Shown here: positions 4,299 through 13,867 of the stretch, piece after piece
Layout of the letters: each line of letters starts with the position of its first letter
Position numbering within the stretch: position 1 is the first letter of the stretch
Origin: Asanoa siamensis
GTDB lineage: Bacteria > Actinomycetota > Actinomycetes > Mycobacteriales > Micromonosporaceae
Assembly (NCBI RefSeq): GCF_016862555.1
Contig: NZ_BONE01000073.1
Span: forward strand, 1 to 39,519
Reading direction: 5' to 3'
Length of the DNA stretch: 39,519 nt
Made by a program: the position numbers and the translations under genes
The notes under the pieces: model-generated
Seen by the model: the letters and a program-made list of their open reading frames with translations, nothing else
Databases searched by the model: none
What the model was told of the DNA's origin: nothing

Positions 4299-4375
4299 AT
4301 GCCCTCGTGCAGACGCGCTGACACCCCGCGTGCCGCACCACTGGCCCTGACGACGAAAATACCGAGGTGGCGAAC

Positions 4376-7237
<2,862 letters not shown>

Positions 7238-7399
7238 AGAGCGTCAAACCGAAGAGATCCAAGCTGATGTCCCGGGTTCGTCGGGGGCGCGACCGTCGCT
7301 CCCGCCGGACCCGGGGTTCGTCGTTGGTCGCGCTTTTGAAGGGCGCCGTTTCCATGACCGGTTCCGCTCGGGACTGGCCGGAATCTTCGGCGTCGTTGG
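7238..7399 (+). other. leuS 3' intergenic stretch
   Basis: Together with the repeat copy and the gene's 5' region, this forms a 387-bp stretch (7238-7624) without a supported gene. An open frame of 47 codons (ATG 7267 to TAG 7410) exists, is arginine-rich at its N terminus, lacks a good ribosome binding site and ends inside the repeat. I do not call it a gene. No strong terminator for leuS precedes the hairpin at 7416-7486. Confidence 0.5.
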
Positions 7400-7580
7400 T
7401 CACCCTCTAGGCCCCGGGAGGGGTATTGCGCGCTGGAGCTGTCGCACAAACCGCTCCCTTATGCTCCAGCGCGCAATACCCCTCCCGTGTCCTGACGCAC
7501 CCACCATCCGCGACCACGGTCACGGCCCGAGGGTCACAGTCCATTGGCTGATCTTTCGCGGTGGGACTTCCGCGGGGGGT
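7400..7580 (+). repeat. ~180 bp hairpin element, copy A, upstream of the 111-aa gene
   Basis: This segment matches, in inverted orientation, 8639-8816 over nearly its whole length. It begins with TCACCCTCTAGG and has a perfect 24-bp inverted repeat (7416-7439 with 7463-7486; 23-nt loop). A tail of about 90 bp follows that is almost identical in both copies, including CACCCACCATCCGCGACCAC, CACGGCCCGAGGG and CACAGTCCATTGGC. The tail ends about 45 bp before the gene start at 7625. The hairpin could end leuS transcription. The conserved tail suggests an additional promoter or 5' leader role for the next gene. No transposase and no terminal inverted repeats are seen. Confidence 0.85.
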
Positions 7581-7624
7581 TGCGTGGGTGGGTCGGCGGC
7601 GGCTTCGAGCAGGGAGGATCACCT

Positions 7625-7960
7625 GTGGGCGTCGATGTCGAGTTGTTTCGGATCGAGCAACTGGGGACTAGTCCCCGGCGTCGGCGGACCGTCGAGGTCG
7701 CCTCGGTCGGTGATGTCCACTTCCACTTCGCCAAGGTTCTCGAGCGGGCACAGCATCAAGGCACCACGCCGATGCTCGACCGCATTGATCTCTATGGAAC
7801 GCTCGAGCTTTCGCATGACGAGATGCCTCAGTTGCTCGCCGAGCTGAGTCAGCTCATCGCCGCATCCGAGGGTGAGCTCGAGGTGTTGCGGGCGATCCGG
7901 CGGTTGGCCGAGTCCTGTCAGGAAGCTCGTGAGCTGGGGCTGCGGTTTGTTGGTGACTGA
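7625..7960 (+). CDS. hypothetical protein, 111 aa
   Basis: Not a family I recognise. The start is GTG 7625 because AGGGAGG (7611-7617) sits 7 nt upstream; the frame stays open back to 7544, but that part runs into the repeat element. The protein begins with a short polar segment containing RRRR. A middle part follows with alternating hydrophobic residues (TVEVASVGDVHFHFAKVLE), then LDRIDLYGTLELSHDEMPQLLAEL, and the C terminus is a probable helix pair rich in Glu, Leu and Arg. There are no signal peptide, membrane segment or cysteine clusters apart from one Cys near the end. It is convergent with the VOC gene: the two stop codons abut (TGA 7958-7960 and 7961-7963). Both genes are preceded by a copy of the same 180-bp element, which suggests joint control. 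Confidence 0.75.
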   Translation: MGVDVELFRIEQLGTSPRRRRTVEVASVGDVHFHFAKVLERAQHQGTTPMLDRIDLYGTLELSHDEMPQLLAELSQLIAASEGELEVLRAIRRLAESCQEARELGLRFVGD

Positions 7961-8569
7961 TCAGGTGTTGGCGGGCTCCCAGGTGAAGCCGTCGGGGTCG
8001 GTGAAGGCCGGGGTGTCGGCGGAGATGGTCAGGCGGTGGGAGCCGGTGCCGTCGGGGGAGACGCCGGCGGTCTTGGCGATCGCCCGGCGCTTGTTGAGGG
8101 TCAGCTTCACCGGGCCGGTGTCGAACTCGACGTAGCGGCCGCCGAAGCTCTTCGAGGCGGCGAGGCCGTGTTCCGCGTAGAAGCGCTTGCTTGCCGCGAC
8201 GTCTTCGCAGCCCAGTTGGAGGACGATGGCGGCGATCTGTTTGGTGGCTGGGCCGGTGTCTTTCTTCGACGACGATGCGATCGTCCAGAGGGTGCCGTCG
8301 GGGGCCTGCACGACGCCGCCGTAGCCCCACAGGGACGTCGCGGCCGGCTTGAGGATCGTGGCGCCTGCCTGTGCCGCGGCGTCGACGAGGGCGTTGACGG
8401 TGGCGGGCTGCGACACGACCAGCGACAGGGTGAAGCCGCGGAAGCCGTTCGTCGGCGCGTCGGCGGCCTTTATCCGCAGGCGGTCGCCCAGCCCGAAGGC
8501 GGCTGTGTAGAAGCGCTCGGCGGCAGCGGCGTCAGCCGCCTCGACGGTTACGAACTCGATGGAAGGCAT
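7961..8569 (-). CDS. VOC (glyoxalase/bleomycin-resistance fold) family protein
   Basis: 202-residue cytoplasmic protein with two tandem halves of the vicinal oxygen chelate fold. The first half begins IEFVTVEAADAAAAERFYTAAFGL and ends GYGGVVQAPDGTLWTI. The second begins IVLQLGCEDVAASKRFYAEHGL and ends ADTPAFTDPDGFTWEP. Such paired modules form a cleft that often binds a divalent metal and a small molecule (glyoxalases, dioxygenases, antibiotic-binding proteins). The usual metal-ligand His/Glu set is not obvious at the expected strand positions, so this may be a binding protein rather than an enzyme. ATG 8569 is the start. A copy of the 180-bp element lies 69 bp upstream. The substrate is unknown. 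Confidence 0.85.
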   Translation of the reverse strand: MPSIEFVTVEAADAAAAERFYTAAFGLGDRLRIKAADAPTNGFRGFTLSLVVSQPATVNALVDAAAQAGATILKPAATSLWGYGGVVQAPDGTLWTIASSSKKDTGPATKQIAAIVLQLGCEDVAASKRFYAEHGLAASKSFGGRYVEFDTGPVKLTLNKRRAIAKTAGVSPDGTGSHRLTISADTPAFTDPDGFTWEPANT

Positions 8570-8638
8570 GCGATGACGCTATTCGTCTAGCCGGTGTGCG
8601 TGCTTCTTGATTCCTGACCGGCGATGCCCCCAACCGTG

Positions 8639-8816
8639 ACCCACCGCGGAATTCCCACCGCGAAGATCGCCAATGGACTGTGTCCCTCGGGCCGTGGTCG
8701 TGGTCGCGGATGGTGGGTGGGTCAGGGCACGGGAGGGTGTTGCGCGCTGGAGCATTGGGAGCGGGGTTTGCGACTTTGCGTAAGCGCGCGACACCCTCCC
8801 GGGACCTAGAGAGTGA
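8639..8816 (-). repeat. ~180 bp hairpin element, copy B, upstream of the VOC gene
   Basis: Inverted counterpart of 7400-7580. On the minus strand it runs from TCACTCTCTAGG (8816) to ATTCCGCGGTGGGT (8639). Its hairpin arms are 8783-8800 and 8731-8748 (18 bp, one imperfect pair). Relative to copy A, one base pair is missing from both arms, and one A-T pair is a G-C pair in both arms. These are compensating differences that point to selection for the hairpin. It occupies most of the gap between the VOC gene (8569) and the end of the TVP38 gene (8839), so the hairpin may also end transcription of the murT operon. Confidence 0.85.
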
Positions 8817-8838
8817 GCCACGACGCCGAGAAACCCGG

Positions 8839-9609
8839 TCAGTCCCGAGCTGAACCGGTCTTGGAACGGCGCGCCGACCGCCGCCACCGCCAGACGATCA
8901 CAGCGCTAGCGATCAACCCGAAGCTCGCCGGGACCACGGTGAACCAATTGATCGAGCCGGGCGAGACCACTGCCGAGCCGAAGGCGGCATAACCGAAGGC
9001 GGAAGGCACCGAGGCGATCACGCTGCCGGCCAGGTAGGGAGCAAGGCGGGCGCCGGTCGTGCCGTAGCCGTAGCTGACCAGGCCGAAGCCGCCCAGGGGG
9101 ACCAGGCGGACCGTGATGACGCCGAGCATGGACTGGCGGGTGAACCAGCCGTCGAGTTGGGCCAGGCGGCCGCGGACGCGTTCGGCTACGAAGTCGCGGC
9201 CCAGCCAGCGGCCCAGGGCGAAGCCCAGTAGGGCCGCCAGGAAGGCCGCGGCCAGGGTGTAACCCGCGCCGCCGAGGGGGCCGAAGAGGGCGCCCCAGGC
9301 GACCGTGATCAGGGTGCGCGGCACCAGGGCGATCAACAGTGCGGCGCCGACCAGGATCGCGGCCAGAGGCGCGAACGGGCCCAACCGGTCGACGGCGTCC
9401 GGGATGGCCTGGAGGTCGGGTGGGGCCAGCAGCAGGATCAGGCCGAAGGTGCCCAGCAGGGCGACCAGGAGCGCGAAGCGGAGCACCGGGTGCCGGTGCC
9501 AGCGGGAGCGGGCGCCCGCCGGCAAGGCCAGCATGGACCGACCGGGTGGGAGGGCCGGTCGCGCCGGTGGGGCGGGGAGTGCCCGCCGCTCCGGCGGGTC
9601 CGGGGTCAC
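8839..9609 (-). CDS. TVP38/TMEM64 (DedA-like, VTT-domain) membrane protein
   Basis: 256-residue polytopic membrane protein of the TVP38/TMEM64 branch of the DedA superfamily. After a Pro/Arg-rich N terminus come TM1 (FALLVALLGTFGLILLL), TM2 (GPFAPLAAILVGAALLIALVP) and the family core PRTLITVAWGALFGPLGGAGYTLAAAFLAALLGFALGRWLGRDF. Two more helices follow after the conserved RLVPLGGFGLVSYGYG. DedA and VTT proteins are implicated in moving or recycling lipids, including undecaprenyl phosphate carriers in bacteria and phospholipids in eukaryotes. The GTG start (9609-9607) overlaps the gatD stop codon in a GTGA tetrad, so translation is coupled to gatD. This suggests a link to lipid II metabolism (inference). 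Confidence 0.88.
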   Translation of the reverse strand: MTPDPPERRALPAPPARPALPPGRSMLALPAGARSRWHRHPVLRFALLVALLGTFGLILLLAPPDLQAIPDAVDRLGPFAPLAAILVGAALLIALVPRTLITVAWGALFGPLGGAGYTLAAAFLAALLGFALGRWLGRDFVAERVRGRLAQLDGWFTRQSMLGVITVRLVPLGGFGLVSYGYGTTGARLAPYLAGSVIASVPSAFGYAAFGSAVVSPGSINWFTVVPASFGLIASAVIVWRWRRSARRSKTGSARD

Positions 9610-10316
9610 GGTTGAACGGCGAGTTGGCGCTCCTGGCGCAGGCGCTCCGCCCAGCTGTCGTCCAGCGGCGGCAGGTAGCCCGCGCCGGTGGCCCAGCGCA
9701 GCAGCAGGTCGGCCAGGGCCGGGTTGCGGGACAGCGCCGGGCCGTGGGAGTACGTGCCGAGCAGGTTGCCGCGCCACGCTCCCTCGCTGGTGCCGTCGTT
9801 GCCGATGCCCGTCGTCACCTGGGCCAGCGGCGAGACCCCGGGGCCGAGGTGCGTACGCCCGCCGTGGTTCTCGAACCCCGACAGCGGCGGTAGGCCGAGG
9901 CGGGGGTCGATCACGCCGTGCAGTTCGCCGACGGCGCGGGACGGCCCGCGGTCGGAGTGCAGGTCGAGCAGGTTGAGGCCGGGGAACTGGGCGCCCTTGG
10001 CGAAGAAGGACGTGCCGAGGAGCTGGTAGCCGGCGCAGACCGCGAACACCACCGAGCCCTGCGCCACGGCCCGGTGCAGGCCGCCGTCGGCGTTGAGCCG
10101 CTGCGCGGCCAGGGCCTGCGGGCCGTCCTCGCCGCCGCCGATCAGGTAGAGGTCGGCGCCCTCGGGCAGCCGCTGGTCGGAGCGCACCTCGATGGTCTCG
10201 ACCGGGATCCCGCGGGCCTGGGCGCGGGCGGCGAGGATCAGCATGTTGCCCCGGTCGCCGTAGGTGGACAGCAGGTCCGGGTAGATCCAGACGATCCGCA
10301 GGTCTTCAGTTGACAC
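9606..10316 (-). CDS. gatD: lipid II isoglutaminyl synthase, glutaminase subunit GatD
   Basis: 236-residue class I glutamine amidotransferase of the CobB/CobQ-like type. It hydrolyses glutamine and passes ammonia to MurT, which amidates the alpha-carboxyl of D-Glu in lipid II to D-isoglutamine. The nucleophile Cys94 lies in VVFAVCAGYQLLG and the catalytic His191 in GTYSHGPALSRNP. DLYLIGGGEDGPQ and FENHGGRTHLGPG are typical of GatD. It starts at GTG 10316, overlapping the end of murT by 11 bp, and ends in a 4-bp overlap with the TVP38 gene. Translational coupling would keep the two subunits balanced. Length and motifs are normal. Confidence 0.95.
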   Translation of the reverse strand: MSTEDLRIVWIYPDLLSTYGDRGNMLILAARAQARGIPVETIEVRSDQRLPEGADLYLIGGGEDGPQALAAQRLNADGGLHRAVAQGSVVFAVCAGYQLLGTSFFAKGAQFPGLNLLDLHSDRGPSRAVGELHGVIDPRLGLPPLSGFENHGGRTHLGPGVSPLAQVTTGIGNDGTSEGAWRGNLLGTYSHGPALSRNPALADLLLRWATGAGYLPPLDDSWAERLRQERQLAVQP

Positions 10317-13669: not shown

Positions 13670-13867
13670 GGCGACGAGGCATCGGGTCCCGCGAAGACCC
13701 GCGTTCCGCCGCCGTTCGCCCGCCGTACCGCGAGATCTCCACCCGCTCCCGTCCCTGGCGTCCCTTCCCCGGTGCCAGGCATGGCGGCGGATGGGGATCT
13801 GGCGGTACGGCGAGCGATGCAGCCGTCTGGCACGGCGGAAGACGGCGGGTCACTGGGGGGACAACCG

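Follow-up and report, generated by a model that had tools for sequence, protein, structure and literature searches.

SPRITE, described in pneumococcus, is a small interspersed repeat with a narrow host range, an over-long terminator-like stem and a location near gene 3' ends (PMC3049150). It has an 18-bp duplex, a long U-rich tract and an AT-rich composition, and a target-site duplication is not establishable (PMC3049150). ERIC (also IRU or RU-1) and Correia/NEMIS are small, non-autonomous intergenic repeats that form long stem-loops and are reported to alter how stable nearby mRNA is or how RNases process it (PMC2229807). REP sequences are short palindromes beside GTAG, with a dedicated HuH protein, TnpAREP, and a high copy number (PMC8266576). 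MITEs are shorter than 500 bp, contain no internal transposase and have terminal inverted repeats as well as flanking direct repeats, which stem from target duplication and disappear with age (PMC10969869).

The window analysed here is a 39,519-nt stretch of DNA from the soil actinobacterium Asanoa siamensis. An earlier note on this window described two inverted copies of a hairpin element, one upstream of each of two convergent genes. Our preferred reading, to which we give a probability of about 0.66, is that they belong to a low-copy, non-autonomous hairpin element of Asanoa found mostly at gene 3' ends, for which we propose a role in transcripts and an inversion between the two window copies.

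Copies A and B in the window

Copy A lies at 7343..7585 on the forward strand and copy B at 8639..8872 on the reverse strand. In a blastn search of 7340-7590 against its own genome the two are 85% identical (E 3e-64), and a repeat search finds inverted arms at 7350-7422/8794-8866, 7480-7548/8669-8737 and 7555-7580/8639-8664, which confirms the inverted pair. The blastn partner range of copy A is 7343 to 7580, with the right end set by eye; copy B was delimited by blastn and by a match to our covariance model R1 (141.1 bits), which also matches copy A at 7392-7564 (147.4 bits). The limits first proposed, 7400-7580 and 8639-8816, do match each other, but homology starts about 55 nt further out (at 7343 and 8872) and takes in a left part preceding the hairpin. 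The element thus delimited consists of this left part (GCCGTYCCAYGACCGGT...TCGTTGGTCRC..CTAGG), the hairpin, a spacer and a tail (GGGNCACAGTCCATTGGC..GATCTTCGCGGTGGG).

The hairpin of copy A (7408..7494, +) has arms at 7409-7439 and 7463-7493 that are 94% complementary, and folds at -60.9 kcal/mol (z -10.3). That of copy B (8722..8808, -), found by inverted-repeat search, has a partly unpaired upper stem and folds at -45.9 kcal/mol (z -6.4). Each is more stable than all 200 of its dinucleotide shuffles. CCTGACSCACCCACC is the sequence 3' of both hairpins, and as read from the window neither is followed by a T-run; our terminator pattern scan took loops of 3–8 only and could not score these two. 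A tail-motif search places the conserved motif GGGNCACAGTCCATTGG of copy A at 7531..7547 (+) and the motif of copy B at 8670..8686 (-). Two differences described previously, a gap of one base in each arm of B and the change of one A-T pair to G-C, are present in the alignment. Copy B does not pair along its full length: it contains an A.C mismatch, and its upper stem is open (TTACGC opposite GCTCCA).

Copy A lies behind the gene that we, like the earlier note, take to be leuS (4367..7237, +), an ORF with orthologues in six of six Asanoa genomes. Ahead of it is a gene for a 111-aa protein (7625..7960, +; GTG start, GGAGG at 7613-7617), which has no match in Pfam or NCBIfam at E 0.001 and a 67% identical orthologue in G002 (L068 3760-4098). 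A VOC/glyoxalase-family gene follows on the other strand (7961..8569, -; PF00903), and copy B lies behind a VTT-domain gene (8839..9777, -; PF09335). The model match of copy A is 154 nt from leuS behind and 60 nt from the gene ahead; that of copy B is 14 nt from the VTT gene behind and 85 nt from the gene ahead. According to the copy alignment, the left end of copy B supplies the final codons of the VTT gene. The names rpoC, rplA, leuS and MurT/GATD are our presumptions from length, order and sequence.

By eye, leuS has a 3' hairpin of its own at 7271..7316 (+), with a pattern match at 7292-7308. Its unit RCCGTYGCTCCCGCCRG recurs at leuS (G000, G001, G002 and G004), at rplA (G000 and G003), at locus c4 and in other Asanoa 3' regions, and looks like a second repeated terminator-like unit. 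Elsewhere in the window, an mraW RNA motif at 13717-13820 (59.3 bits) is the sole Rfam match at gathering score.

Family and host range

Model R1, built from 13 copies, finds 32 full-length copies across six of six Asanoa genomes: 5, 6, 6, 5, 8 and 2 in G000 (the genome of the window) to G005. This count leaves out shortened matches in L076, L077 and L085, remnants in L068 and L082, hits to these hairpins on the opposite strand and weak hits of the tail unit in L074. At 4493-5031 of L074 (G005), the tail unit is repeated in tandem by itself, with a period of 80 and about 6.7 copies. With blastn at E 0.001, four of the five other Asanoa genomes have dispersed copies; at E 1 the genome of the window yields both copies, hits to the opposite strand of their hairpins and four short chance-level matches. 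Per genome, the six-genome R1 search scored 150 of some 13,000 first-pass candidates and a search of 150 genomes only 18, with tighter filters, so these counts may lack weak copies.

The full element is restricted to Asanoa in our sample. Among 150 sampled Micromonosporaceae genomes, matches outside Asanoa occur in five genomes of one genus and cover the palindrome only (model positions about 23–97); none is longer. Allowing at most one mismatch, the tail motif has 29 matches in the six Asanoa genomes, 28 of them in full-length copies and one in a remnant behind rpoC, and two in 35 other genomes searched. The exact tail 19-mer occurs in seven stretches of the genome collection: five are from Asanoa, and the other two, from a Pasteurellaceae genome and from Oceanisphaera, are taken as chance. 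A phage or plasmid origin was considered, and blastn gave no match in the phage or plasmid collection. As to known RNA families, the element region has no Rfam 15 match at gathering score; seven sub-threshold matches are six of microRNA type and one viral stem-loop.

The copies are present or absent at orthologous places. Some loci are shared by several species, such as c4, filled in five genomes, and c1, filled in four; others are filled in a single species. Behind rpoC, G001 and G004 have a full element, G002 has a 42-nt tail remnant, and G000, G003 and G005 have nothing. A tree, whose rows include up to 62 nt of upstream sequence that is host sequence at some loci, divides the family into two subfamilies, with A and B in the smaller (8 copies). 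Every member of one clade of 12 copies comes from G001 or G004, which indicates that the family spread within that lineage. Dispersal of the element is well supported, and these observations support the mobile repeat family that the earlier note had offered as one of its readings; that the element moves as a unit is inferred from them. Past rplA in G004 (L092), the element is followed by a second very long palindrome (GGGTGGGTCCCGTTGTCGG...), by eye unrelated to it.

Hairpin structure and covariation

The stem of the family model has 27 pairs. In the model-fitted alignment of 32 copies, 17 of the 27 pairs show changes on both sides, and an unfitted MAFFT alignment of 13 copies shows double changes in 19 of 43 pairs. 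For the structure as a whole, the covariation score is 0.311, compared with a mean of 0.151 for shuffled alignments (0 of 500 reach 0.311); slid controls do not exceed 0.058. The result differs by measure: 'further pair types', one of five, was reached by 34 of 500 shuffles. Helices that the model places outside the hairpin are G-U-rich and have little support.

Conservation is uneven along the element. Across the 32 copies, identity is 0.90–0.91 in the lower stem and 0.86 in the tail motif, and 0.59–0.65 in the upper stem, loop and spacer. Mean pairwise identity is thus higher in the tail motif (0.86) than in the loop (0.65), as had been noted for the window pair.

Of 851 stem cells, 809 are Watson-Crick, 8 are G-U and 34 are unpaired, including 10 A-C. 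RNA pairing would favour G-U. Since G-U is no commoner than A-C, selection on RNA is not clearly indicated. The arms may instead be kept complementary at the DNA level, either by arm-to-arm correction (quasi-palindrome template switching) or by passage through a DNA hairpin during movement. The counts that point this way are small, and five of the ten A-C cells fall at one pair, in an internal loop common to related copies, so the cells are not independent. We regard DNA-level maintenance of the pairing as a serious contender, though one that we would not bet on.

Ends of the element

The element is about 240–280 bp long, and no shared long ORF was seen by eye. MITE-type end repeats were suspected by eye, and a shuffle test gave nothing: comparing the left end with the reverse complement of the right part in the 16 copies with a recognisable left end, we found no terminal inverted repeats above shuffles (mean z 0.04). 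Inspection by eye of rpoC, rplA, leuS, c1, c45 and u82 revealed no clean target-site duplication or filled/empty pair.

One copy bears on how the element moves. In G004, the L083 copy hardly differs from the copy at c1 in that genome. Beyond 5175 on the minus strand, it carries roughly the last 34 nt of the c1 gene with its stop codon, together with a 17-nt block from further up. This piece of 3' coding sequence is damaged and comes from another locus, so copying is imprecise at the left end.

A classical MITE, moved by the DDE transposase of a resident insertion sequence, would likewise be shorter than 500 bp, dispersed, mostly intergenic and present or absent at orthologous sites. Against it stand the end comparisons, the sites inspected for target duplications and the host flank in L083, and we consider this origin unlikely.

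The leuS–VTT locus

In G000 the order is leuS(+), A, 111-aa gene(+), VOC(-), B, VTT(-). In G005, it is leuS(+), VOC(+), VTT(-), and the locus is without a full element. The VOC proteins of the two genomes are 69% identical. The gene is flipped in G005 only, among the genomes compared; no VOC orthologue was found beside leuS in G001, G003 or G004. G002 has copy A, the 111-aa gene and VOC fragments in the G000 orientation, followed by an interrupted remnant of B. The interruption, at L068 4329-4773, is 445 bp long, starts and stops with CTAG and has inverted ends CTAGATGATC; it is probably a short insert that duplicated its CTAG target.

Because the VOC orientation is opposite in G005, an inversion may have come about through A and B. 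Recombination between the inverted pair would turn around the stretch that carries the VOC and 111-aa genes; this is the simplest account of the two gene orders and a likely one, with G005 as the one outgroup. Comparable head-out pairs, with 1.2–1.4 kb between the copies, occur in G001 (L062) and G003 (L072), and G004 (L082) has one with a left-part remnant. In L072, the space between the inverted copies contains a long palindrome of AT-rich sequence (AGATCTAGGAAAATTAGTG...) along with a series of GC-rich repeats.

The leuS 3' region of G005 has a weak R1 match (L100 1413-1543, -; 20.9 bits, E 0.0019, or 0.0001 when searched alone) that spans the last leuS codons and runs into the leuS 3' hairpin. 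The match lies mainly in the spacer, and its spacer part resembles that of the smaller subfamily. This likeness makes a decayed trace possible in place of a never-filled site; the G005 leuS 3' hairpin may be a decayed copy or the source of the spacer.

Position relative to genes

Genes were called with a simple GC-frame caller, with unclear cases corrected by hand from ORF reading, and the position statistics rest on these calls. Orthologous copies were grouped, giving 17 loci. At 13 of the 17, the gene behind is co-oriented with the element (p 0.03). At nine, the stop codon of that co-oriented gene is no more than 60 nt from the start of the model match, where 7% is expected from intergenic positions and orientations in these stretches (p 6e-7). 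Copies that form tandem or inverted pairs count only in part as independent of the copies next to them. The 111-aa gene and its G002 orthologue escaped the caller and were added by hand; it also overlooked c4 in G001 and the gene behind c38, and without c38 the counts are 12/17 and 8/17.

At several loci the left end begins 0–6 nt past a stop codon, for example behind LacI-type-like (u82) and GntR-type-like (c45) regulators and a GGDEF-EAL protein (c1). NCBIfam matches of other upstream genes are below the model cut-offs, except for the GGDEF domain. At leuS, rplA, rpoC and the malic-enzyme-like c4, the element lies beyond what by eye appears to be the gene's own 3' hairpin. The earlier note had named random orientation relative to genes as a refuting outcome. 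Orientation proved non-random, but it follows the gene behind the element and not the gene ahead.

The preferred reading, of a low-copy element found mostly at gene 3' ends, would account for these positions if most copies had entered, or survived, just past the end of a gene and in the same direction as that gene. Placement in sense would put a long hairpin within the 3' region of the transcript, where it would most likely block or process transcripts leaving the gene behind, leuS for A and the VTT gene for B. The earlier proposal that the hairpin stops transcription from these genes fits the position of the family, but not the missing T-run or the leuS hairpin at 7271-7316; with own 3' hairpins at leuS, rplA and rpoC and no T-run, a terminator role is not needed there. 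Besides the results on the ends and the T-run, further observations count against the preferred reading: four of the 17 loci are not behind a co-oriented gene, and the host coding sequence brought along in L083 ill suits a precise transposon.

A bolder version would make the element a mobile 3'-end module that places itself at stop codons in sense and gives each gene a new hairpin 3' end. It would need no terminal repeats to move and would pass through an intermediate that is a hairpin or linked to a transcript, at which the c1 coding end carried in L083 hints, and its arms would be kept paired by DNA-level correction and not by selection on RNA. We think this rather improbable.

More doubtful still is that terminators arose separately at each gene and came to look alike by convergence. 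Very stable hairpins behind genes would suit that account, as would the likeness of the G005 leuS 3' hairpin to the element's spacer, but the left part, spacer and tail align across loci outside the hairpin, the tail motif keeps to the full-length copies and the rpoC remnant, copies cluster by lineage and the T-run is missing.

Clear co-oriented starts within 100 nt downstream occur at four of the 32 copies (A, its G002 orthologue in L068, B and L065 in G001), and doubtful co-oriented ORFs at two more (L078 and L082). The remaining downstream ORFs of at least 80 codons have a base composition unlike coding sequence; for L059 and L060 the view ends with the sequence, 467 and 665 nt downstream. 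The best sub-threshold Rfam match is to a microRNA family (E 0.0006), a response expected of any palindrome. These family-wide downstream positions, the missing Rfam match at gathering score and the VOC gene of G005, present without a full element, lead us to set aside as very improbable the earlier suggestion of a 5' regulatory leader common to the 111-aa and VOC genes, despite co-oriented starts 60 and 85 nt downstream of both window copies and strong covariation of the structure.

Comparison with known repeats

In our searches of the open-licence literature, no description of this hairpin family was found. The family adds a bounded hairpin repeat to a GC-rich actinobacterial genus. Across six species its orthologous sites are filled, filled in part or empty, which opens position bias, arm evolution and repeat-driven inversion to study. 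Closeness to stop codons, if it reflects a targeting rule rather than tolerance, would be an unusual insertion preference.

Like MITEs, the Asanoa element is shorter than 500 bp and has no transposase inside; unlike them, it gives no sign of terminal inverted repeats in the 16 copies compared. It shares with REP a dispersed palindrome with strand-specific sequence beside it, but is about 240 bp long, with a 27-pair stem and 2–8 full copies per genome. The stem foot of many copies is CTAG, not GTAG. Like ERIC and Correia/NEMIS, it is small, non-autonomous and intergenic, with a long stem-loop; those elements have terminal inverted repeats and target-site duplications, neither of which was found here (PMC2229807). 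With SPRITE, compared by description only, it has in common a narrow host range, a long terminator-like stem, enrichment at gene 3' ends and no establishable target-site duplication, and it differs in its 27-pair stem, the lack of a T-run and its conserved tail. The Asanoa element is a new family that resembles SPRITE and ERIC.
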